Shown here: piece after piece, positions 5,135 to 20,772 of the stretch | Layout of the letters: every line of letters starts with the position of its first letter | Position numbering within the stretch: the first letter of the stretch is position 1 | Origin: Acidobacteriota bacterium | GTDB taxonomy: Bacteria > Acidobacteriota > Terriglobia > Acidiferrales > UBA7541 | Reading direction: 5' to 3' | Length of the DNA stretch: 64,000 nt | NCBI GenBank assembly: GCA_003167215.1 | Contig: PMTV01000050.1 | Coordinates: 34,954-98,953, forward strand | Position numbers and translations under genes: made by a program | The notes under the pieces: model-generated | Databases searched by the model: none | What the model was told of the DNA's origin: nothing | The model's input: only the letters and a program-made list of their open reading frames with translations

Positions 5135-5390
5135 CAAGGTAGCATCGAGGCGGGCAAAACTCCAATTTGGGCTGCGGTTGATGTGTTCACGGCGAATATT
5201 CTTGCTGCTACCAGAGCGGCAGAAACGGAACAAAAAGGAGGATATCCATTTCTGAATTTTTTGGCGATTTGAGCATGTCGCGCTCGTTTGTTTTCAGTGA
5301 GTTGGAGCATGTTCTACTTCCTGAGTTTGGCGATTTAATTTTGCAGCTTCGGTGTTCGCGGGGGGATCCAGAGGAACAGAAAATGCAAGA

Positions 5391-5420
5391 GCAGATCCCT
5401 CGCTGCGCTCGGGATGACAG
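5391..5420. repeat. Dispersed palindromic-like repeat ('CHPERSEG' type)
   Basis: The segment contains ATCCCTCGCTGCGCTCGGGA plus flanks, with inverted ATCCC/GGGAT arms. Its minus-strand translation gives the 'CHPERSEGS' string, a known hallmark of a short dispersed repeat often mis-annotated as protein. One copy was seen here. It lies in the roughly 590-bp stretch between the sppA start and the regulator remnant, which otherwise shows no gene I trust. A minus-strand frame over about 5420-5640 has gene-like codon choice but is interrupted by this repeat and is not recognised. Confidence 0.6.
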
Positions 5421-5653
5421 TGGACAGAAATCGGGGACTCGTTCGGAGCGGAATGAGTATTCTCTCCGGATGCGTTCTGGTGCTGCACAATTACGATGTG
5501 CTTGGTGGGATGCTTAACCCATTCTCCGAACTCGTTGATGTGAGTGTAGGCGTGCACGGCTTTGACCACGGAAGAGGCTGTAACTTTGACGATTTCCGCG
5601 CACTCGATAACCGATTCCAGGGCAAGCGGACGGCTCTTCGGCGACGGGCAAAA

Positions 5654-5950
5654 ATGCCTGTGGCATGGACGGGCGTGGCGTCGCGATGGCCGGGCTTTTT
5701 GAAAATGGGACGCACGATTCTGGCTGCCGCGGGATTTCATCCAGAGAGCCTGCTATTTCGCGATGCTCGCAAGGCAAATTGGCAGCGAGGTTTGAAAGAG
5801 ACTGCGGCGGTTGTTTGCGATTCGGTGACCGCGTCAGAACTGCCGAAAACATTTCGTGTGGTGCAATTCCCTCTCGTTTCGGAAGCTACTTTGGCGGAGC
5901 TACGGCGTTACGAGAAGTTCATCCGCAATCCGCTCGTTCCTTCAGTGTGA
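5654..5950 (+). pseudogene. Remnant of a regulator-type protein (C-terminal domain only)
   Basis: From about 5680 the plus frame reads like the effector or output domain that follows a GntR-type HTH in some acidobacterial regulators. Fragments are 'LAAAGFHPESLLFRDAR', 'GLKETAAVVCDSVTASELPK' and 'FPLVSEATLAELRRYEKFI', ending with a normal stop at 5948-5950. No DNA-binding HTH could be read upstream in any frame, and the preceding bases contain a dispersed repeat and frame breaks. I interpret this as a 5'-truncated relic. Alternatively it is a short stand-alone protein starting at ATG 5654, although no ribosome-binding site supports that. The family assignment comes from memory of similar C-termini and is tentative. 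Confidence 0.4.
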
Positions 5951-6017
5951 CCCTGTGGCGATGAAATCCCCGATCGACTACGAAGCCTAAAAAAAAAGGC
6001 AAGGACACGTCAAAACC

Positions 6018-6046
6018 CGCACCCTTCGAAAAACGAAGAGTGCGGC
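6018..6046. repeat. Short perfect-loop hairpin
   Basis: CCGCACCCTTCG (6018-6029) and CGAAGAGTGCGG (6035-6046) form a 12-bp stem with one mismatch around an AAAAA loop. A smaller A-rich hairpin (GCCT...AGGC) lies just upstream at about 5985-6000. There is no T-tract, so it looks more like a dispersed intergenic hairpin than an intrinsic terminator, although it lies between the regulator relic and the next gene. Confidence 0.45.
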
Positions 6047-6211
6047 ACCCTGAAATTCGGTCTTCGGCGTAGGGGGAGTACGGTGTGCTGCCGAGGGGTC
6101 TCTGTGGCAGGGCGCTTCGTAAGTCCTTTGGCACTGCTCTTAAGCTGTACTTTCGTCCAGTTGTTCGGCGGCGGCACGCACGCGCATCATCGAAGCAGGG
6201 ATTAGCCTGCA

Positions 6212-8047
6212 TTGGCATTTGTGTCGGTGCCACTAGATCGAAACACCTGGAGAAGACCTTTGCGTCGCGCGCACCAATGGCTCGTTGTCGCGTTCATACT
6301 TGTGCAATTGGGCTGCTCGGGCACAACGAAGACGCCTGGAACGCCGCCAGCGCAGATCGCTGTGAGCGTGATGCCGACCGCCGCGAATGTGCGAGCAGGA
6401 GCGACGCAGCCTTTTACTGCCAGCGTAACCGGCACAACGAATCAGAATGTGACCTGGTCGGTGAATGGGGTTGCGGGCGGCAACGCGACAAGCGGAACGA
6501 TCAGCGGGTCGGGGGTGTACACCGCTCCGGCTAGCTTGCCGAATTCAAACGCGATCACGATCGGCGCCGCGTCCGCTGCGGATTCCAGCGCGAGCGGAAC
6601 GAGCAAGGTCACGTTGTGGAATGCCACGCCGACGGTCAGCAGCGTAACTCCGACGAGTTTTACCGCGGGCGCCTATACGCTTACGGTGACGGGCAGCAAT
6701 TTCGTGAGTGGCGCGCAAGTGCTGTTTGGAGGCGCGGCGGTCACTACGGCCTATGTTTCAGCTACGCAGCTTACCGCGACGGGTTCGGAATCCAGCGCGG
6801 GACTATTTGCCGTCAGCGTGAGCAATCCGAATCCAGGGAGCAGCACTTCTTCAGGCATCAACGTGACGGTGACGTCGCAATCCGGCGGCAATCCTCCACC
6901 GCCGAGCGCTTGCAGCGCAATCAGCCTCGGGCAGGGCGGCAGCCTCAACGGCTTCCTTCCCTTTCCGGCGGATAACGCATGGAACCAGAATATTGCAGAC
7001 GCGACGGTGGATCCGAATTCCGCCGCGATTATTAATTTCATCGGAGCAGGCGATCCGGTGCATCCGGATTTCGGCTCCGGCGAGTATCAAGGATCGAGCA
7101 TTGGAATTCCTTACATCGTGGTTGATTCAGACCAAGCGCCGGTGGCGATTAATTTCACAGCCTATGGAGACGAGAGCGATCCCGGGCCGATGCCGGTTCC
7201 GGCGAGCGCGCCGATAGAGGGATATCCGAATCCGGGAAGCGGCGACCGGCACGTGCTGGTTCTCGACAACAGCAACTGCTGGCTGTACGAACTCTACAGC
7301 TCGTATCCGCAGAGTGATGGGAGTTGGAATGCGGCGTCCGCAGCGGTGTGGGATTTGACGGCAGACGAGCAGCGGCCACTGACGTGGACATCCGCCGATG
7401 CCGCGGGGCTTTCGGTTTTCGCCGGGCTCGCGCGCTACGACGAAGTTGCCAGCGGGGAAATCAAGCACGCGCTACGGTTCACGCTGCAAGACAGCCGCGC
7501 GGCTTTCGTGCCGCCGGCTTCGCACTGGGCTGCGAATTCAACGAATGCGAATGCCGCTCCCATGGGCATGCGTCTGAGGCTGAAAGCGAGTTTTGATATT
7601 TCGCAGTTTTCGGCCACGAACCAGGTGATTCTGACGGCGCTGCAGCAGTACGGCATGATCATGGCTGACAACGGCTCAAACATGTACATCAGCGGCGCGC
7701 CGGACGATCGCTGGGATAACGATGACCTGCACAATCTGGATCAGGTCACGGCTTCGGACTTCGAAGTGGTGACGATGAATCCGATCTACACGCAAGCTAA
7801 CTTGCCTACCGGAGCAGCACCGGCGATTTCGAGCTTCACGGCAAGTCCCTCGACGGTTTCCGCCGGGGCGCAAGTGACGCTGCAATGGAATGTAACGGGA
7901 GCGTCGTATTTCGATGTGACGCCGGAAGTTGGCGCGATCCGCGGCGCGAGTGTGGTGGTTACGCCGTCGCAGACTACGACGTTTACGCTCAACGCGACGA
8001 ACGAATTCGGACGCACGACTTCAACCGTCACTGTTACGGTGCAGTGA
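6212..8047 (+). CDS. Large secreted lipoprotein with Ig-like (Big, IPT/TIG) domains
   Basis: A hydrophobic N-terminal segment (WLVVAFILVQLGC) ends in Cys and suggests a lipoprotein signal, although Gln at -3 is atypical. A bacterial Ig-like repeat follows at about residues 48-135 ('VTWSVNGVAGGN', 'GSGVYTAPASLP'). An IPT/TIG domain is at about 140-220 ('SVTPTSFTAGAYTLTVTGSNF'). A larger unrecognised middle domain runs to about 525 ('FPADNAWNQNI', 'NGSNMYISGAPDDRWDNDDL'), and a final Ig-like repeat ends in 'TVTVTVQ'. The middle domain resembles secreted proteins of unknown role in soil bacteria. The start is ambiguous: TTG 6212, GTG 6221 and GTG 6227 are all in frame. A cell-surface or binding role is inferred from the architecture. 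Confidence 0.8.
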   Translation: MAFVSVPLDRNTWRRPLRRAHQWLVVAFILVQLGCSGTTKTPGTPPAQIAVSVMPTAANVRAGATQPFTASVTGTTNQNVTWSVNGVAGGNATSGTISGSGVYTAPASLPNSNAITIGAASAADSSASGTSKVTLWNATPTVSSVTPTSFTAGAYTLTVTGSNFVSGAQVLFGGAAVTTAYVSATQLTATGSESSAGLFAVSVSNPNPGSSTSSGINVTVTSQSGGNPPPPSACSAISLGQGGSLNGFLPFPADNAWNQNIADATVDPNSAAIINFIGAGDPVHPDFGSGEYQGSSIGIPYIVVDSDQAPVAINFTAYGDESDPGPMPVPASAPIEGYPNPGSGDRHVLVLDNSNCWLYELYSSYPQSDGSWNAASAAVWDLTADEQRPLTWTSADAAGLSVFAGLARYDEVASGEIKHALRFTLQDSRAAFVPPASHWAANSTNANAAPMGMRLRLKASFDISQFSATNQVILTALQQYGMIMADNGSNMYISGAPDDRWDNDDLHNLDQVTASDFEVVTMNPIYTQANLPTGAAPAISSFTASPSTVSAGAQVTLQWNVTGASYFDVTPEVGAIRGASVVVTPSQTTTFTLNATNEFGRTTSTVTVTVQ

Positions 8048-8150
8048 GCAGCCGCCTCTGACCAACCCCTTCGCTCTACTCTGATCGATAAACCCCGGGC
8101 AGAATTAAGAGAAGGCGAAGCTATCTAGGCGTGATTGATTTGGAGCGGTC

Positions 8151-9677
8151 TTAGTGAGGCCTTTGCTGCGCTGCTCGTTGTTGTGCTGCGGCGGCTGCTG
8201 CGGCTCTGGCCTGGGCTTGCGCGTTATATTGGTAACCTGGTGCGGGTTGAGGCGGATAGCCGGGGCGCAGACCGGGATTGAGCGGGTTCATCTGACCAGG
8301 TCCTGGTGGCGCACCACTTTGTGCGGCCATTAGTCTTTGTTGATCGCCGGCGAGCTCAGGGCTACTCGGGTAATAAACCAGCATCGCGTTCACCAAGTGG
8401 AGAGCGGCAGGAAAATTCTGCTGCTGGGAGAGCTGGTTGAGCTGCGTGCGAAACTGATTGCCGAGTTGCTGCTCCATCGCTTTACCGGCGGGATTACCCG
8501 CTTTCCCGGCGAGGATAGCCCAGTGAAGCGCGCAATCATTCGGCGGCTCGAAGTAGCGCGCCTGCGCGTAGGCGGCCTGCGCATTTGAAAGCATGGCTTG
8601 ACTCGGATTGGCGGAAGATACGGGAACGGTTGATGCGGGAGCAGCCGGCTTGGCGACTCGCACGTTTTCTCCAGGCGCTTTGGCCGGCTCGGTGCTGGCA
8701 TCGACAACTTCCATAACTCCTGTGCCGCCCGGCTTGCTTTGCCAGTTCATATCGAAGACAACGCCATCGTGAACGTCGATGACGCCCGAGCCTGAAGCAC
8801 TGCTGGGCTTTCTGCCGGGGCAGGAAACCAGTCCATCAATGGAATACTGCTGCTGCCCTTTGGGCACGTCGTTCGCGGCATAAGGATTGGTGGCGAGATG
8901 AAAGGTTTTGCCGGCGACGGTCATATTCAGATTCGGCGTGCACAGATGGCGATCCACGTTGTATTTCAAGACGATGGTGGCAGTGGCGGGCGCAACCGGC
9001 ACAGGAGCAGGCTTTGGATGCGGCTTGAGAAAATGCCATCCGGCAAGAGCAGCGACGACAACTGCGGCGCCTGCGGCTATCGGAATCCACGGAGGTTTCG
9101 TCGCGGCGGCAGGAGAGCCGCTCGCAACTTGAGCGCTCGGCGCGGGAGGCGGGACCGCACGCACGCTGGGCGGAGCGGTGGGAGCGACGTCGGGCGCCGG
9201 GCGCGTGACGGCCGCGGGCGGAGCAGGCGGAGTTGAACTCTCCACGTCGGCACGAATGCCCTTGGCATGGAGGCCGGCAACCAGGGCTGGAATGATAGTG
9301 GGGATTTGATCGGCGCGAACGCGAGTGGCGTTGGCGGCAGCCATGGCCTGTTTCCAACCGGGCCTGCGGTGCGCGTACTCGTCGTGGGTCAAGTCCAGAA
9401 GCAGCGGCAGGGTGGCTTTGTTAGCTTCGACGGCGCGGACGATCTCGCGCGTAATTTGGTCGGAGGGCAGCGAGCGAGGAGAAATAATAATGGCCATCGC
9501 CTCGCAGTCCGATATTGCTTTGAAGGTTTCTTCGAAGTAATCCGCGCCCGCGGGGCAATCGCGTTCGTAATACCAACTGCTATAGCCGTGCGACTCCAGC
9601 TGCTTGGCAATTTCGTGCGCTACGCCGCCGTCTTCCTCAACGTAACTGACAAAAACCTTTTTGGGCCCTGAATCCAT
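8151..9677 (-). CDS. TIR-domain protein with one membrane helix and extended C-terminal region
   Basis: The 508-residue protein starts with a TIR domain (about 6-140): 'KKVFVSYVEEDG', 'GYSSWYYERD', 'AIIISPRSLPSDQITREIV' and 'LPLLLD'. Glu78 in 'TREIV' aligns with the catalytic Glu of NAD-cleaving TIRs such as SARM1 ('HKEIV'), so NADase activity is plausible. A Pro/Ala-rich linker follows, then one membrane helix (about 197-216, 'IPIAAGAAVVVAALAGWHFL'). Next comes a beta-rich domain with Cys246 and Cys286, a helical stretch ('DCALHWAILAGKAGNPAGKA') that may be TPR/Sel1-like, and a Gln/Ala/Pro-rich tail. The ATG at 9677 is chosen because GGGAG lies six bases upstream and the TIR fold starts there. 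An upstream in-frame codon at 9803 is unsupported. The gene is divergent from the RyR/SLATT pair. Confidence 0.85.
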   Translation of the reverse strand: MDSGPKKVFVSYVEEDGGVAHEIAKQLESHGYSSWYYERDCPAGADYFEETFKAISDCEAMAIIISPRSLPSDQITREIVRAVEANKATLPLLLDLTHDEYAHRRPGWKQAMAAANATRVRADQIPTIIPALVAGLHAKGIRADVESSTPPAPPAAVTRPAPDVAPTAPPSVRAVPPPAPSAQVASGSPAAATKPPWIPIAAGAAVVVAALAGWHFLKPHPKPAPVPVAPATATIVLKYNVDRHLCTPNLNMTVAGKTFHLATNPYAANDVPKGQQQYSIDGLVSCPGRKPSSASGSGVIDVHDGVVFDMNWQSKPGGTGVMEVVDASTEPAKAPGENVRVAKPAAPASTVPVSSANPSQAMLSNAQAAYAQARYFEPPNDCALHWAILAGKAGNPAGKAMEQQLGNQFRTQLNQLSQQQNFPAALHLVNAMLVYYPSSPELAGDQQRLMAAQSGAPPGPGQMNPLNPGLRPGYPPQPAPGYQYNAQAQARAAAAAAAQQRAAQQRPH

Positions 9678-9813
9678 GCGCACTCCCGAAGGACCGCTCG
9701 GATTTGATCGCAAGAAACCGCAAGTATTGTCTAATACCCGTTGCGGCTTTTGCAAACTGAAAGCGAGTAACAGTACTGTTCGACTCTGATTCAGGACTGC
9801 CACCGGGGAGTTG

Positions 9814-9842
9814 TTGGGCCGGGTTTGGTCTTCTGGTATAGT
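9814..9842 (+). promoter_or_regulatory. Putative sigma-70 promoter for the RyR/SLATT pair
   Basis: TTGGGC (9814-9819) and TATAGT (9837-9842) are separated by 17 bp, about 90 bp upstream of the RyR gene in the 254-bp divergent intergenic region. A short out-of-frame ATG at 9920, behind a GGAG motif, could be a leader peptide (14 codons overlapping the RyR start) or chance. Confidence 0.45.
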
Positions 9843-9931
9843 GGCGCGCTCCAGGCGATTTTTCGGGACAGTAGCGGCAAGTTCCTAAGAAGTCCCAAGT
9901 TCTTCTATCAGCAAGCGGAGATGGCAATCGA

Positions 9932-10222
9932 ATGGCAGAGAAACCATACATTCCCCACCCGATAGATACGTCGCGGGTCAGCCTCAGCGAGGTGCAGCCG
10001 TTGCTGGAAGACCTGGCGCGAAATGCGCATGAAGTGTGGGCGCAAAAACGGATCGAAGATGGGTGGACGCTGGGGCCGCGGCGTGATGATGCCCAGCGTA
10101 CGCATCCATGCCTTGTTCCCTACGAGCAGCTTCCGGAATCCGAGAAGGAGTACGATCGAGCCCTGGTGAATCAAACGCTTAAAACGATTCTTGCATTGGG
10201 GTATCGCATCGTAAAACGGTGA
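9932..10222 (+). CDS. Stand-alone bacterial RyR-domain protein
   Basis: The whole 96-residue protein is one RyR domain (the repeat first described in ryanodine receptors). It carries the family hallmarks 'YIPHPIDTS', 'NAHEVWAQKRIEDGW', 'GPRRDD', 'HPCLVPYEQLPESEKEYDR' and 'TLKTILALGYRI'. There is no signal peptide or membrane span, so it should be cytoplasmic. In prokaryotes RyR domains have been linked by comparative genomics (Burroughs and colleagues) with nucleotide-dependent conflict systems, as likely ligand-binding modules. The stop is three bases from the start of the SLATT-like gene, which has GGTGAG overlapping this stop, so the two are translationally coupled. By context it may sense a nucleotide made or consumed by the adjacent TIR protein. 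That link is inference. Confidence 0.93.
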   Translation: MAEKPYIPHPIDTSRVSLSEVQPLLEDLARNAHEVWAQKRIEDGWTLGPRRDDAQRTHPCLVPYEQLPESEKEYDRALVNQTLKTILALGYRIVKR

Positions 10223-10225
10223 GAG

Positions 10226-11356
10226 ATGGCAACTCCGGCATCGGCAGTATCGGGTTCATTCGATGACATGGATGACTCCTTTGAGATTTCGTTTTGCCGG
10301 GAGAAAGTAGAAGCGGGTCACAAACGTTATCTGCCTCTTTTCAATGCGCTGAAGCTGGCTGAGGAATTGATCCTCGACAAATTTCGGGAAGCGGACGAGC
10401 GCGCGAAGACTTACCGGAGCAGATACCAGAACATTTCCTTGGGTGCGGTGCTTGCCGGATTGTTCGCGGTCATGCTAGGGATCTGTGAAATTGTTTTACC
10501 CCACTTTTGGCCCGTCGTTTCCGAACTACGCCTGGCAGTATTTGAATCCGCCGCAGCCGTCATTTGCCTAGCTTTAATCCTTGTGGGAACTATCGGTAAA
10601 CCGAAAAATCAATGGCTGCTGGCGCGATATCAAGCGGAAAATCTACGGCTTCTAAAATTCAAGACGCTCATGGACTCCCGTCTATGGTGCGAAGAACCTG
10701 AACAAATCGATAGGAGCGGTGAAACGCCTCCGGATCATGTTCGTGCGGAAGTACGCGACGCGGTTCGTGCTCTCCACGGATTGGTTTATGAAGACGTGGC
10801 GGAACGTGCGGCGCAAGGTGTGGTACCGGACGTCTCGGAAATACATTGTCCTGATAGTTGCCATGAGGCACTGCAGGAAATAATTCAATATTACCGTGAC
10901 AAACGGCTCGCCACACAGATGGATTACCTCGCGGCCAAGAGCGACGAAGAAGAAAGCGGCGGTAGAGTGTGGCGCTTGGCGACAAGTATCTTATTTTTCG
11001 TCAGCTTCGGCTTGGTCCTGTTCCATTTGCCGTTCGTTACCAAGACGGATAAGCTGAAGGACCCCAATGACTTCAAGGACCCCTATTACTTACTAACCAG
11101 TTTACTGCTGTTAGGGGCGGCGTTGCTGCCGGCCATGGTTGCGGGAATTCGGACCTACCGCGCTTCTCGCGAGTTCGAGAGGAACGCTTTGCGCCATCGC
11201 GCAACGCTTCATTCGCTGGAAGGGCTAAATGTGGAGATGGGCAAGGCCAAGAACCTGCCGAGAAAATTCCGAATTGCCCGAACTTGCGAGCTGATTCTGG
11301 AATTCGATTCTTGCGAATTCATGCGCTTGCTGCGCGAAGTGGAATGGTACGGCTGA
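10226..11356 (+). CDS. SLATT-like (DUF4231-type) membrane protein with two 2TM units
   Basis: The 376-residue protein has four predicted membrane helices in two pairs: about 69-91 with 102-124, and 249-269 with 287-309. After the first pair comes the SLATT-type signature 'WLLARYQAENLRLLKFKTLM' (an Arg, Ala-Glu, Leu-Arg helix). After the second pair a similar charged amphipathic helix follows ('YRASREFERNALRHRATLHS'). A cytoplasmic domain of about 120 residues separates the pairs. SLATT proteins are proposed pore-forming effectors of nucleotide-activated systems. The tandem arrangement is longer than single-unit SLATT proteins. The start ATG is coupled to the RyR gene. The role as membrane-disrupting effector is inferred from family and context. 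Confidence 0.82.
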   Translation: MATPASAVSGSFDDMDDSFEISFCREKVEAGHKRYLPLFNALKLAEELILDKFREADERAKTYRSRYQNISLGAVLAGLFAVMLGICEIVLPHFWPVVSELRLAVFESAAAVICLALILVGTIGKPKNQWLLARYQAENLRLLKFKTLMDSRLWCEEPEQIDRSGETPPDHVRAEVRDAVRALHGLVYEDVAERAAQGVVPDVSEIHCPDSCHEALQEIIQYYRDKRLATQMDYLAAKSDEEESGGRVWRLATSILFFVSFGLVLFHLPFVTKTDKLKDPNDFKDPYYLLTSLLLLGAALLPAMVAGIRTYRASREFERNALRHRATLHSLEGLNVEMGKAKNLPRKFRIARTCELILEFDSCEFMRLLREVEWYG

Positions 11357-13817: not shown

Positions 13818-16106
13818 ATGAGAATGCCAGAAATCTCGAAGTGTCTGCAGTGGCTACAAGTCGCGCGCAAGACTCCGGTCGTTCTGCGCCTGCGGACGAA
13901 GTTCCTGTTGTCGATCGTTCTGATCATCGCCTGGCTTACGTTCGCGACCTTATTGATCGTAGGGCGTACCGCGCAGAAAGAAGTTGAACGGGGGATGGAG
14001 AAGGACACGCGGAATTCGATGTTGACGTTCCAGAATCTAAAGGCCGAACGCCAGCTAGAAGAAAATCGCCAGGCGGAATTGCTGGCCACGCTCCCCACGG
14101 TGAAATCGCTCCTGTCGGAAGAAGACGACACCCCGGAGGCGCAAGAAGCCGCGGAAAGCCTGTGGCTTTCGGGGGGATACGAACTCGTGGTGGTGGCCGA
14201 TTGGAAGGGAAAAGTTATTGCGCTGCATTCCAACGTCCCCGGATTTTCTGAGGGCGATGCAGAACAAATGTTTTCTCGTTCGCAAAAGATAAGTGGGGCA
14301 GGGGGATGGTGGTACGGCGACCGACGTCTGTATCAAGTTGCGTCTCGCCCCGTCCAACTTGGACCGGCCTCTGCGAATATGCGTTTGGGTACGGTGGTGG
14401 TCGGACGCGAAATTGATTCGAGTGTGGCGCACGATGTGGGGCAGATCGCATTTTGCCGTGTGGCGTTGCGCTACGGCGACGAACTGGTGGTGAGTTCCCT
14501 TCCGGCGATGGATGAGCGCACGGCGGCAGATGCGCTTCTAAATTCTCCGGGCGCGAACAAGATTCAGATTGGGAAAGAATGGTATCTGGCCAACACAGTG
14601 GATTTGACTCCGGGCTCGTCTCCGGCGGTCACGCTGACGGTGCTGAAGTCTTACGATGATGCGACTGCATTTATAACACGGCTGAATCAGACTCTGATCG
14701 CGCTGGGCTTATTTGCCGTTTGCGCAGGAGGAGGGCTGGTCTTCCTGATTTCATACACATTCACGAAACCACTGGCGACGTTGGTGAACGGCGTTCGAGC
14801 GCTGGAACAGGGAGACTTCGATTATCCGGTGGATATTGGGGGCGGAGATGAAGTAGCAGAAGTGACCGCCGCTTTCGACCGCTTGAGAAGCACGCTGCTT
14901 CGAAATGAAGAACAAAGCAAACGGCTGGGAGAACAGCTGCGGCAGGCGCAAAAAATGGAGGCTGTTGGCAGGCTGGCGGGCGGGGTGGCACATGATTTCA
15001 ATAATTTGCTGACGGTGATCAAGGGCCACAGCGACCTGCTTGAAGAAAAAATCACTTTGGCCACTCCGATGTTCCACAGCATCACGCAAGTGAAGAAAGC
15101 GACGGACCGCGCGACTTCGCTGACGCGCCAACTGCTGGCATTCAGCCGCATGCAGGTATTGCAACCGAAGATTCTGGATCTGAATTCCTTGATTGCGGAG
15201 ACCTGCAAAATGCTGCCGGTGCTGATCGGCGAGGATATCGACTTCAAATTCTATGCGGCGCGGTCTCTGGGATTGGTGAAAGCGGATCCTTCGCAGATCG
15301 AGCAGGTCTTGATGAATTTAGCCGTGAACGCTCGAGATGCGATGGAGAAAAGAGGCGGCGAATTCACCATTCGGACGCGGAACATCGTCCTCGACGAGCA
15401 GTATTCAAAGGCCCATCCTCCCACCGTGCCGGGACACTATGTATTGCTGGAGGTGGAAGACACGGGGAAAGGGATGGACGCGCCAACTAAGGCGCGGATT
15501 TTCGAGCCGTTCTTCACCACGAAGGAGCTCGGCAAGGGTACGGGACTTGGTCTTTCGACGGTGTATGGGGTGGTGAAGCAGAGCGGCGGCTACATTTGGG
15601 TGGAAAGCGAAGTTGGGAAAGGTACAAAGTTTCAGATTTTCCTGCCGCAAAGCGGAGAAAGTGTGCCGACCGCCGTATCGGAAAGCGGCTCAGCATCTTC
15701 CGCAAGCGGATTCGGCACGATCCTGCTGGCCGAGGACGAAGAGGCAGTTCGAGAGTTGGCGTCTGAATTCCTGAAGGCAAGCGGGTATACGGTCTTGGTT
15801 GCGAAGGATGGATTAGACGCGCTGGAGGTCGCCGAGCAGCGCAGAGGTTCGGTCCATGTGCTAGTGACGGACGTGGTGATGCCGCGAATGAGGGGCACGG
15901 AGCTGGCGCGGAAGTTAAAGCGCTGCCATCCGGAACTTAAGATCGTTTATATGTCCGGCTACCTCGAACACGACAGCCAGGATAATGACTACGTGCCTGA
16001 CTCGGAATTTCTGCAGAAGCCATTTACGCGAGAGAGCTTGTTGCGGAAAATACGAGAAGCCATCGAGAGCAAATCTAATGCATCCGAATCCGTCGGAGTC
16101 CGCTAG
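13818..16106 (+). CDS. Membrane hybrid histidine kinase with C-terminal receiver domain
   Basis: The 762-residue protein has membrane helix 1 at about 28-48, a periplasmic sensor of about 235 residues of dCache-like type, and membrane helix 2 at about 291-313. A HAMP linker covers about 314-370. The HisKA domain has phospho-acceptor His392 in 'GGVAHDFNNLL', a DHp motif often seen in hybrid kinases. HATPase_c follows (N-box 'NLAVNARDAM', G-boxes 'VEDTGKGM' and 'GKGTGLGLSTVYG'). A receiver domain at about 634-750 has Asp685 in 'LVTDVVMPR' and 'LQKPF'. All catalytic residues are present. It probably autophosphorylates in response to a periplasmic signal and passes phosphate to its own receiver; no partner regulator is adjacent. 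The ribosome-binding site is weak, and ATG 13824 is an alternative start. Confidence 0.92.
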   Translation: MRMPEISKCLQWLQVARKTPVVLRLRTKFLLSIVLIIAWLTFATLLIVGRTAQKEVERGMEKDTRNSMLTFQNLKAERQLEENRQAELLATLPTVKSLLSEEDDTPEAQEAAESLWLSGGYELVVVADWKGKVIALHSNVPGFSEGDAEQMFSRSQKISGAGGWWYGDRRLYQVASRPVQLGPASANMRLGTVVVGREIDSSVAHDVGQIAFCRVALRYGDELVVSSLPAMDERTAADALLNSPGANKIQIGKEWYLANTVDLTPGSSPAVTLTVLKSYDDATAFITRLNQTLIALGLFAVCAGGGLVFLISYTFTKPLATLVNGVRALEQGDFDYPVDIGGGDEVAEVTAAFDRLRSTLLRNEEQSKRLGEQLRQAQKMEAVGRLAGGVAHDFNNLLTVIKGHSDLLEEKITLATPMFHSITQVKKATDRATSLTRQLLAFSRMQVLQPKILDLNSLIAETCKMLPVLIGEDIDFKFYAARSLGLVKADPSQIEQVLMNLAVNARDAMEKRGGEFTIRTRNIVLDEQYSKAHPPTVPGHYVLLEVEDTGKGMDAPTKARIFEPFFTTKELGKGTGLGLSTVYGVVKQSGGYIWVESEVGKGTKFQIFLPQSGESVPTAVSESGSASSASGFGTILLAEDEEAVRELASEFLKASGYTVLVAKDGLDALEVAEQRRGSVHVLVTDVVMPRMRGTELARKLKRCHPELKIVYMSGYLEHDSQDNDYVPDSEFLQKPFTRESLLRKIREAIESKSNASESVGVR

Positions 16107-17803: not shown

Positions 17804-19162
17804 CTACAGCGTTCGCTCGATCTCCGTGATGATGCCATCGAGGGTGCGAACTGCAAACTCGGCTTGTTCCTCGTCGATCATGAGCGGTGGGCAAAGGCGC
17901 AGAGTGGTGTCGCCTGAACCAAGGACGAGAAGACCCTTGTGGAACGCCATCTGGACGATGCGGTTACGCAGGTCGGGCGCTCGCTCCTTAGTCTTTTGGT
18001 CGCGCACAAACTCAACGCCAATCATCAGACCGCGGCCGCGAACTTCGCCGACGATTTTGTGCCGCTCGGGCCAGTTTGCCGTTTGCCGCTTGATGAACTC
18101 GCCCATGCGAGCGGCGTTGGCCATGTAACCTCGTTCAATTAGGCCCAGCGTTGCGAGGGAAGCTGCGATGCAAACGGGATTGCCACCGAACGTGGAAGCA
18201 TGCGCCCCAGGCTTCCAGTCCATCACCGAAGCCTTTGTGATAATGGCGCTGAGCGGCATGCCGGAGGCAATTCCCTTCGCGGTGCAGATAATATCGGGCT
18301 CGACGCCGGCATAATCCACGGCCCACCACTTGCCGGTGCGGCCCATGCCCGATTGCACTTCATCGGCGACGAGCATGATTCCATACTTGCGGCAGATTTT
18401 TTCCAGGCCTTGCAGGAATTCCGCGGGGGCGGGCAAATAACCGCCTTCGCCTTGGACCGGCTCGATGAAAATTCCGGCTACTTCGTCGGGATCCACACGA
18501 CGGCGGAAGAGTTCATTTTCGAGATACGAAAGGCAATCAGCGGACGCGTTCTCCGGACGGATTCCGTAGGTGCCGCGATAAGTGTCCGGGAACGGCATGT
18601 GAAATACGCCGGAGAGTAGAGTGCCAAATCCTTTGCGCTGGACTGCCCTGCTGGCGGTGAGTGAAAGCGCGCCCATGGTGCGTCCGTGGAATGCACCGTG
18701 AAAGGCAACGAGCTTGTCGCGCTTGGTATGATATTTGGCCAGCTTGATCGCCGCTTCCACCGCCTCCGTGCCCGAATTGCCGAAATAAACACGCTTGGGT
18801 TCCTTGCCAGGCGCAATGGAAGCAAGCTTCTCGGCCAATTCCACCATGTTGGGATAATAAAAATCCGTGCCGGACATGTGAATCAATTCGGAGGCTTGCT
18901 TTTGAATTGCGGCGACGACCTCAGGGTGGCAGTGGCCCGTGGAAACGACAGCAATGCCTGCGGCAAAATCGAGGAACGAGTTGCCGTCCACGTCTTCAAT
19001 CACCGCGCCGCGGCCTCTTTTGACGACGAGTGGATAATCGCGCGTGTAAGAAGGCGAAACTACGCGCCCATCGCGCTCTACAACCTGCTGGGCCTTGGGG
19101 CCCGGCAGCGGAGTAATCAGGTGCGGAAGCTTGGTTTCAATATTTGTTTCCGTCGCTTGCAT
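17804..19162 (-). CDS. Class III PLP aminotransferase (4-aminobutyrate/acetylornithine-like)
   Basis: The 452-residue fold-type I aminotransferase has all class III marks: 'GNSGTEAVEAAIKLAKYHT' (phosphate cup), 'AFHGAFHGRTMGALSLT', Asp267 in 'LVADEVQSGMGRTG' and PLP-binding Lys296 in 'TAKGIASGMPLSA'. The 'HASTFGGNPVCIAASLATL' block is also present. Overall pattern and length fit omega-amino acid or 4-aminobutyrate aminotransferases, which pass an amino group to 2-oxoglutarate; substrate cannot be settled from sequence alone. The start at 19162 follows GGAGGAA by four to five bases. It may head a transcript running into yraN. Confidence 0.9.
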   Translation of the reverse strand: MQATETNIETKLPHLITPLPGPKAQQVVERDGRVVSPSYTRDYPLVVKRGRGAVIEDVDGNSFLDFAAGIAVVSTGHCHPEVVAAIQKQASELIHMSGTDFYYPNMVELAEKLASIAPGKEPKRVYFGNSGTEAVEAAIKLAKYHTKRDKLVAFHGAFHGRTMGALSLTASRAVQRKGFGTLLSGVFHMPFPDTYRGTYGIRPENASADCLSYLENELFRRRVDPDEVAGIFIEPVQGEGGYLPAPAEFLQGLEKICRKYGIMLVADEVQSGMGRTGKWWAVDYAGVEPDIICTAKGIASGMPLSAIITKASVMDWKPGAHASTFGGNPVCIAASLATLGLIERGYMANAARMGEFIKRQTANWPERHKIVGEVRGRGLMIGVEFVRDQKTKERAPDLRNRIVQMAFHKGLLVLGSGDTTLRLCPPLMIDEEQAEFAVRTLDGIITEIERTL

Positions 19163-19332
19163 GTCTTCCTCCAGGAAGCAGATTTATGAAATCTTTATTT
19201 AAAAACGCGCACAAGTTTCTGCACGCGAGGAACGAACAGATAGAGGAAGAAGGACTTAATCGACGCCGAAGAGGTTCGGGCGTTCGTGGGAAGGCTGACT
19301 ATGCAGCGACAGAATGTATTTCGTTGAAATCT

Positions 19333-20772
19333 TCATTTGTACTTCCAGCGGACGCTTCCGTCTTTCGTGTCTTCAACTATGATACCAGAATCGGCGAGCT
19401 GCTGGCGGATATCATCGCTGCGTTTGAAGTCTCGACGCTTCTTTGCCGCATTGCGTTCCTCGATCAGCGTTTCGATGCGTTCCGCGGGCATCCGCTCTTG
19501 TGACTGACCAAAACCGAGCTTGGCCAGCTTGTCATCGTCATCGTCCACGAGCACGGCCAGGATGGCATCTACTTTCTCCATAGTGGCGACGACGCGCGGA
19601 GCGTCCTGCTGCAGGAATTCGCCGCGGTCCATGGCCGTATTTATGTCGCGCACCAGATCGAAAACCGCGGCCAAGGCCATTGCCGTATTTAAGTCGCCGG
19701 CCAGCCCAGCGTCGAAATCCGTCTCGGCCTTTTCGGCACGCTTGAGGATTTCCGCGCTCGATCCAGCGGGAAATTGCTCCACCTTCAATCGCGAGACAAA
19801 ATTCCGAAGCCGCGCGACCGAACTTTCCGCTTGCTTCAGACTGTCCGAGGTGAAATTAAGCTGGCGGCGGTACGGAACGGAGAGTAGCAGAAAGCGGATG
19901 GTGGAGGGCTTGTGGCCTTTGGCGAAAAGATCGCGCAGGGTAAAGAAGTTTCCGAGCGATTTCGACATTTTTTCGCCGTCAATGATCAAGTGTTCCGCGT
20001 GAAGCCAGAGCCGGACAAAGGGATGGCCTGTCGCCGCTTCACTTTGGGCGATTTCGTTTTCGTGATGCGGGAATGCAAGGTCCACGCCGCCGGTGTGGAT
20101 GTCCAGGGTATCTCCCAAATATTTCATAGCCATCGCGGAGCACTCGATGTGCCAGCCAGGCCGGCCTGGGCCGATACGCGTCTCCCAAAAATGTTCGCCG
20201 GGCTTGGGGGCTTTCCAAAGAGCAAAGTCGCGCGCGTTCTCCTTCTCGTACTGGTCAACGTCAACGCGCAGGCCCGTTTTCATCCCGGCCAGATCGATCT
20301 TGGAGAGCCGTCCATAGTGCGGAAATTTTGCGATGCTGTAATAAATCGAGCCTTCGCTCGAGTAGGTCAGGCCCTTTTTTTGAAGCCGCTCGATCAGGGC
20401 AACCATGTCGTCAATGTGGTCCGTGGCGCGGACGAGCTCTTCAGGAACTTCCAGATGCAGAGCGTCCATGTCCTGGAGAAACGCCTGGACGTATTTTTCG
20501 GTGTACTCGCGGATGCTGACTCCGGCGGCCGCGGCCTTCTGGATGATGCGATCGTCCACGTCCGTTAAGTTCATGACCTGAAGCACGCGGTATTTGCGAG
20601 ATTGAAGGAAACGCCGGAGAACATCCTGAAAGACGAACGTTCGGAAATTCCCAATATGCGCAAAGTCATACACGGTCGGGCCGCAGGTGTACATGCGAAC
20701 CTCGCCTTTATGGACTGGATCCAGAGGCTGCAACCGGTTCGTCAGCGTATTGTGCAGGTGTATGGCAGTCAT
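19333..20772 (-). CDS. cysS: Cysteinyl-tRNA synthetase
   Basis: This cytoplasmic class I synthetase charges tRNA-Cys. The 479-residue protein has the HIGH-type motif 'HIGN' (39-42) and 'KMSKS' (268-272). Zinc ligands that discriminate Cys from Ser are Cys30, Cys211, His236 and Glu240 ('FPHHENE'). The C-terminal domain ends 'SVRWKYK'. The start at ATG 20772 ('MTAIHLHNTL') matches family N-termini; the 22-residue upstream extension to 20838 does not. The ribosome-binding site is weak. It is transcribed divergently from a small secreted protein gene. Its cognate tRNA-Cys lies at 3176-3250. Confidence 0.97.
   Translation of the reverse strand: MTAIHLHNTLTNRLQPLDPVHKGEVRMYTCGPTVYDFAHIGNFRTFVFQDVLRRFLQSRKYRVLQVMNLTDVDDRIIQKAAAAGVSIREYTEKYVQAFLQDMDALHLEVPEELVRATDHIDDMVALIERLQKKGLTYSSEGSIYYSIAKFPHYGRLSKIDLAGMKTGLRVDVDQYEKENARDFALWKAPKPGEHFWETRIGPGRPGWHIECSAMAMKYLGDTLDIHTGGVDLAFPHHENEIAQSEAATGHPFVRLWLHAEHLIIDGEKMSKSLGNFFTLRDLFAKGHKPSTIRFLLLSVPYRRQLNFTSDSLKQAESSVARLRNFVSRLKVEQFPAGSSAEILKRAEKAETDFDAGLAGDLNTAMALAAVFDLVRDINTAMDRGEFLQQDAPRVVATMEKVDAILAVLVDDDDDKLAKLGFGQSQERMPAERIETLIEERNAAKKRRDFKRSDDIRQQLADSGIIVEDTKDGSVRWKYK

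Follow-up and report, generated by a model that had tools for sequence, protein, structure and literature searches.

A candidate TIR, RyR and SLATT defence locus in an acidobacterial genome

A stretch of 64,000 nucleotides from an Acidobacteriota bacterium (GenBank assembly GCA_003167215.1, contig PMTV01000050.1, positions 34,954 to 98,953 of the forward strand; hereafter the window, meaning this whole stretch) carries at positions 8151 to 11356 three neighbouring genes encoding a membrane-bound TIR protein, a single-domain RyR protein and a membrane protein with two SLATT units. With some reserve, we favour reading this locus as a nucleotide-signalled defence module made up of a TIR-made cyclic ADP-ribose (cADPR)-type signal, an RyR sensor and a SLATT pore. 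Phage infection would be the trigger, the TIR protein would turn NAD+ into a cADPR-type signal, the RyR protein would bind it, and RyR in its signal-bound form would cause the SLATT protein to open, or to cluster, as a pore in the membrane, SLATT proteins having been predicted to be nucleotide-responsive pores (PMC7159879, PMC9503650; these and the other papers cited are drawn on in part). Judging from sequence, the linkage of the three genes is not coincidental, because orthologous trios occur in two further species of the genus and sets with differing TIR proteins occur in three other genera. A preliminary description of this DNA had called the trio unfamiliar as a described system, and no description of an RyR-bearing trio was found in the literature searched, which lacked key earlier papers.

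The three proteins and their layout

The TIR gene lies on the minus strand (8151 to 9677, 508 residues), diverging from an RyR gene (9932 to 10222, 96 residues, PF02026) and a double-SLATT gene (10226 to 11356, 376 residues) that form a pair on the plus strand, the arrangement and coordinates being those first reported. Only 3 bases separate the RyR stop (10220 to 10222) from the SLATT start at 10226, with an identical gap in both same-genus relatives (G015 and G019), and the 254 bp that separate the divergent TIR and RyR starts (9678 to 9931) are ∼94-95% identical in G019. The RyR protein is the predicted signal receptor and the SLATT protein the predicted pore.

The RyR protein comprises one complete PF02026 domain (E 6e-35, 119.8 bits against a curated cut-off of 27.4, positions 1-90 of 91). 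Its suspected role as a ligand sensor is now backed by experiments on phage RyR proteins: the mycobacteriophage DyoEdafos protein RyDEP, also a PF02026 protein, binds and hydrolyses the TIR products 2'cADPR and 3'cADPR via H75 and D117; eight further phage RyRs do not cleave, and six of these bind (PMC13232231, a 2026 preprint). RyDEP residues H75, W78, H100 and D117 (L093) align at identical spacing with H33 (10028-10030), W36 (10037-10039), H58 (10103-10105) and D75 (10154-10156) of the window RyR, which thus keeps the ligand residues, all within a ligand-site stretch at 10028 to 10156 on the plus strand (residue roles from PMC13232231); the two proteins are 35% identical over 48 residues by BLASTP. 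H33, W36 and D75 are invariant in 92 RyR domains (the window and 91 from other loci) and H58 is present in 75, with all four kept in 72 of 89 full-length domains. The complete set is found in 12 aligned RyRs of other SLATT-type loci, in two RyR-SLATT fusions (P0027 and P0028) and in L178, and the RyR of L179, which has neither partner alongside, has T in place of H58. Non-cleaving phage RyR binders are likewise highly conserved (PMC13232231). In a ryanodine receptor 3 chain (9c1e), the first repeat is matched at E 2.8e-22, and the RyR part of a RyR-SLATT fusion superposes on Bacteroides thetaiotaomicron 3nrt (1.7 Å, TM 0.86 on target) and also on human RyR3 Repeat12 (R12). RyR matches occur in 239 phage records, some of them annotated as alanyl-tRNA synthetase or anti-CRISPR protein (e.g. 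MK511043, BK061591).

The open frame of the TIR gene extends upstream to a GTG at 9803 (550 residues, the numbering used here), but its true start is probably the ATG at 9675-9677, because homologues P0102, P0127 and P0141 begin at the corresponding residue. The protein consists of a TIR head, a Pro/Ala-rich linker, one predicted membrane helix (residues 240-258, 9030 to 9086, minus strand, by hydropathy) and a long C-terminal part like that of membrane kinases, bearing out the membrane-bound TIR with an extended C-terminus that had been described. The head matches Pfam TIR_2 above the cut-off (E 1.2e-15; residues 50-139, 9387 to 9656, minus strand). The column of Glu120 (codon 9444-9446, minus strand), which we take to be the catalytic residue of TIR NADases, is Glu in 34 of 36 aligned TIR domains, an alignment that leaves out weaker TIR matches and same-genus copies. 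Because a similar C-terminal part sits on Ser/Thr kinases (46% identity over 27% of the query in P0142; 33% in L097), the window TIR looks like a receptor chassis bearing a TIR head. The head is 91-96% identical to those of six relatives on SLATT-bearing contigs, compared with 46-65% for the linker and 64-84% for the C-terminus. The L097 protein (L097:613-2400) is a Ser/Thr kinase that has a membrane helix and resembles the window TIR in its C-terminal part, suggestive of head exchange on one receptor chassis.

The SLATT protein has two hairpins by hydropathy, with four predicted helices near residues 72, 97, 248 and 290, in keeping with the four-helix SLATT-like protein first proposed. These hairpins (residues 72-90 and 97-115, 10439 to 10570; residues 248-266 and 290-308, 10967 to 11149; both plus strand) are strongly diverged in close relatives. 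SLATT_1 exceeds its Pfam cut-off in the second unit (best at 223-267, E 2.5e-6, 28.0 bits against 26.3), and the first unit gives below-cut-off matches alone (DUF4231, 1.7e-4; SLATT_3, 0.018). The AlphaFold model is all-helical with two units and is confident (pLDDT 89, pTM 0.86). The C-terminal end (11315 to 11353, plus strand; consensus EFMRLLREVEWYG) is strongly conserved among 40 aligned sequences, R367 and W374 being invariant and E364, L368, E371, E373 and G376 present in at least 90%.

Recurrence of the trio and its parts

Full-length orthologues of all three proteins are present in the same three of 20 same-genus genomes (G000, G015 and G019); a fourth genome, G008, has a weak 80-residue TIR match and nothing more of the trio. 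Absence from the other genomes is soft because the assemblies are 55-96% complete. We count the three trios as a single inheritance on sequence grounds, since they are syntenic rightward and leftward similarity starts at 8146 in both relatives.

Across the class, a PF02026 census found RyR in 15 of 399 genomes, nine of which have an intact standalone RyR (G000, G015, G019, G060, G190, G193, G233, G283 and G343), the remaining six having RyR within large proteins (G029, G076, G269 and G378) or as fragments (G169 and G317). SLATT lies next door in seven of the nine (in G060 only at the Pfam cut-off), TIR lies within ∼2 kb in seven, and both are present in six; by genus, both are present in four of six. 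Three other genera of the class carry TIR, RyR and SLATT sets in which the TIR proteins are quite different. In L121 the order is RyR-SLATT-TIR(FGE)-TIR(kinase) on one strand, in L122 a SIR2-TIR is divergent from RyR-SLATT as in the window, and in L125 RyR is divergent from SLATT and TIR; the RyR-SLATT pair thus stays while, as the gene content reads, the TIR partner swaps its other domains. In the verrucomicrobial locus L076, SLATT adjoins a TIR-NTPase-WD40 protein and RyR is 4.3 kb from SLATT. The variable TIR parts are probably input sensors, here the membrane helix and kinase-like part and elsewhere FGE, kinase, SIR2, LRR or NTPase-WD40, and RyR plus SLATT is probably the constant output of the module. 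L122 also encodes another protein (18367-19881, minus strand), SLOG-like at its N-terminus and predicted to have four helices, ∼7 kb from the L122 RyR and with no RyR beside it. The RyR at L178:8826-9140 has three TIR frames and a TPR-S sensor protein as neighbours; its contig, from G283, carries another RyR copy that is interrupted by stops.

More widely, we surveyed the best 80 of 215 RyR loci. For 50 loci outside the genus, in 49 genomes, TIR was found in 18 (25 TIR frames) versus 0.68 loci expected from the TIR density of the same genomes (217 TIR_2 matches in 191.6 Mb, or 0.65 TIR expected in 572 kb), a control that leaves general defence-island clustering unseparated. The locus count used our own iterated profile, which may be more sensitive than TIR_2; at least 12 of the 18 are among the TIR_2 matches listed, judged by eye from frame lengths. 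These 18 loci span five phyla (Bacteroidota, Bacillota, Planctomycetota, Nitrospirota and Verrucomicrobiota). With the window added to the 80 loci, TIR is present in 26 of 81, and 13 of the 23 TIR-bearing loci outside the genus have TIR on the RyR strand within 300 bp. Single-linkage families occurring in at least five loci within two genes of RyR are limited to RyR/channel proteins, two TIR-rich groups (TIR on 17/26 members of one and 3/6 of the other) and a SLOG-SLATT type, other families reaching at most four loci. No single frame joins TIR and RyR.

Membrane proteins are the other frequent company of RyR. An adjacent same-strand gene with at least two predicted helices is present in 28 of 63 non-genus standalone-RyR loci, and such proteins make up 30/84 RyR-adjacent genes versus 57/375 others (Fisher P 4e-5). 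An adjacent TIR occurs in 10 of the 63 loci, and a TIR or a neighbour with at least two helices in 36. One recurring partner is a channel-like 2TM protein with TrkA_N and its own C-terminal RyR, both domains being above the Pfam cut-off in L010:3853-6090, L075:4406-5992, L056:320-2221 and L182:3643-5505; in L045 TrkA_N is accompanied by an RyR below the cut-off. Four of ten scanned candidates gave no Pfam match, and the wider family therefore depends on our own profile. From their sequences these potassium-channel-like proteins, encoded within or close to RyR loci, are apparent RyR-regulated RCK channels. RyR also partners a longer protein whose N-terminus is SLOG-like and whose C-terminus carries SLATT-type hairpins (L014, L021, L041, L060 and L177), in which SLOG is above the cut-off in L177 only (L177:6305-8080, TRPM type, LSDAT_prok E 5e-20) and weak or seen via relatives in the others, the SLATT part of L014 and L021 being assigned from helix pattern and relatives. 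L177 brings together in one bacterial locus domains related to TRPM and RyR, two animal calcium-channel families.

Fusions and, at longer range, common contigs also tie together the families of the window's trio. The SLATT protein as query gave 90 relatives, two of which (P0027 and P0028, the latter with a SLATT_1 score just under the cut-off) bear an N-terminal RyR. Searching with the C-terminus of the TIR protein gave 52 relatives, and 6 of 46 listed TIR-family contigs equal in size one of 81 listed SLATT-family contigs (30,607; 37,953; 77,874; 442,653; 750,791; and 1,129,398 bases, the last being the contig of fusion P0027), identity being judged by size in bases alone and gene spacing forming no part of the match.

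Known systems and rival explanations

The closest functional parallel is Thoeris, in which a TIR protein and a neighbouring effector are expected to communicate by a nucleotide signal, the effector of the TM-macro type being a membrane protein (PMC11204291). The window TIR also resembles ThsB (the TIR_2 match at E 1.2e-15; best PADLOC ThsB model, 1.7e-5). However, Pfam found no SIR2, SLOG or macro domain in the window RyR or SLATT proteins, the receptor here would be RyR and the output a double SLATT. By analogy the locus may work like Thoeris, yet it is not a member as defined, because the ThsA architectures (SIR2-SLOG and TM-macro) are absent. The phage RyRs share with the window RyR the PF02026 domain and the four ligand residues at equal spacing (PMC13232231), but they serve phage-borne immune evasion, whereas the window RyR is host-encoded on a bacterial contig, beside a TIR and adjoining (elsewhere fused with) a membrane protein. 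SLATT is unmentioned in the main text of that preprint, and a close relative of the window SLATT was not found in viral contigs. TIR linked to SLATT, as a predicted nucleotide-responsive pore or permeability effector, has been described for TIR and SLATT pairs of firmicute phages and for NTP-dependent conflict systems with SLATT effectors (PMC9503650, PMC7159879); the word RyR is absent from the main texts of both papers, as far as these are drawn on. The animal ryanodine receptor Repeat12 is homologous to the window RyR, but animal RyR has tandem repeats inside a ∼5,000-residue calcium channel whereas the window RyR is a separate 96-residue protein.

Several observations weigh against a TIR-RyR-SLATT signalling module. 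The preliminary description had held that scattered genes or an unpartnered TIR in related genomes would point to coincidental proximity, and for the most part this is not what the class genomes show, given both partners in six of nine; three genomes do depart from it. The 15-kb contig of G190 carries no TIR, and its RyR adjoins a protein in which SLATT hairpins are joined to a TRPM-type SLOG (LSDAT_prok, E 5e-20); in G283 RyR has a TIR and SLATT was not found, and G233 is without either. The SLATT protein is found in seven of the 399 class genomes, two of which (G051 and G371) lack RyR and TIR on the stretch examined. Among the SLATT relatives, L123 and L124 have neither RyR nor TIR on that stretch. 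In only 2 of the 63 non-genus standalone-RyR loci are a TIR and a protein with at least two helices both immediate neighbours of RyR (6 of 63 if the TIR may lie anywhere in the locus), and most RyR loci therefore lack one part. Forty of the 46 listed TIR-family contigs match none of the listed SLATT contigs, both lists being incomplete. PADLOC gave no match at E ≤ 0.01 for RyR or SLATT, no convincing solved fold was found for the SLATT protein, and its pore role is taken over, by analogy, from a published prediction (PMC7159879). Nor need TIR signals be cADPR isomers, since TM-macro ThsA binds ADP-ribose (ADPR) or IAD (PMC11204291). The six window proteins scanned with Pfam (the trio and three neighbours) revealed no obvious defence island.

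The RyDEP catalytic dyad is intact in the window RyR (H33 and D75; PMC13232231), and the protein might therefore destroy rather than sense the signal. An RyR acting as an off-switch, cleaving or soaking up the TIR signal in the manner of phage RyDEP and sponge-type RyRs so that nothing short of a strong burst would get through to the effector, with SLATT triggered otherwise, nevertheless seems unlikely to us. A SLOG (clear in L177, weakly SLOG-like in four loci) does occur on a SLATT-type protein beside a separate RyR, and in ThsA the SLOG forms a pocket for 3'cADPR (PMC11204291), but Pfam detects no SLOG on the window SLATT. Cleavage was seen for RyDEP alone of the phage proteins described above, and RyR is fused both to the window's SLATT family (P0027 and P0028) and to the 2TM-TrkA_N channel-like proteins, as for a gate. 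We also doubt that RyR-SLATT is a two-gene effector sensing another nucleotide (ATP, ADPR or a stress metabolite), the TIR being a separate receptor and frequent neighbour. Structure titles record human RyR3 repeats solved with AMP-PCP, ADP and ATP, the same-genus trios amount to one syntenic inheritance, and the RyR loci with SLOG-like and SLATT-type proteins (L014, L021, L041, L060 and L177) have no TIR, three of them (L014, L021 and L041) in genomes without any TIR_2 match, which also counts against the three-part module. Opposing this are the TIR enrichment at RyR loci, the class genomes in which an intact standalone RyR has both partners while TIR architectures are unrelated, and the contigs common to the TIR and SLATT families. 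Least probable of all, and hardly to be credited, is that the genes share no mechanism and cluster merely as members of defence islands: SLATT and TIR do serve widely in defence (PMC7159879, PMC9503650) and the enrichment control drew on genome-wide TIR density rather than on other defence islands, but this leaves the adjacency and fusion of RyR and SLATT, the same-strand placement of TIR close to RyR in over half of the TIR-bearing loci outside the genus, and the confinement of recurrent neighbour families to RyR/channel, TIR-rich and SLOG-SLATT types.

If the signal-sensor-pore reading is correct, the bacterial RyR domain gains a host function, TIR signalling gains a further receptor type beside SLOG and macro domains, and there is a reason for phages to carry RyR proteins that bind TIR products. 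The system would count as a bacterial relative of calcium-channel signalling in animals, and the locus makes testable in bacteria the long-open question of whether and how cADPR-type messengers open membrane proteins through RyR domains. A broader and more speculative proposal, possible in our view though we would not lean on it, is that bacteria use the RyR ligand domain as a TIR-immune receptor for cADPR isomers that gates SLATT pores (elsewhere TrkA_N/RCK-type channels), that the animal logic leading from cADPR to RyR to channel is an old anti-phage circuit, and that phage RyR sponges and glycosidases are stolen copies of the host receptor.

Divergence within the genus and genomic setting

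Comparison with the same-genus relatives reveals an uneven pattern of divergence. The window and G019 are 90-98% identical in DNA through TIR and RyR, 62-82% over 10346-11145, where identity falls lowest (62-73%) at both SLATT hairpins, then 98% from 11146, 89-94% to ∼11945 and 73-85% beyond. Synonymous divergence (dS) between the two is 0.64 for SLATT, as against 0.17 for TIR, 0.20 for RyR, 0.13 for the neighbouring kinase and 0.024 for the last 60 SLATT codons. Relative to G015, identity is 51.5% for SLATT, 92.7% for RyR and 97.9% for the TIR head. The divergence of the SLATT membrane core looks like allele exchange rather than selection alone. We infer that the frozen TIR head and RyR would fit a fixed signal and that the variable membrane core would fit effector diversification.

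The genome from which the window derives is a 3.78-Mb assembly in 68 contigs. The three neighbours scanned with Pfam are an S49 peptidase, a TIG protein and a histidine kinase, and none of the six scanned window proteins is a CD-NTase (CBASS). Window positions 5267-8145, including the TIG/IPT-domain protein at 6212-8047, were not found beside either flank in G019, where contig ends restrict the view, and G019 similarity to the window resumes at 8146. The histidine kinase of the window (13818-16106) is represented by two frames in G015 (L129:4144-6097), reflecting either a genuine split or an assembly error.

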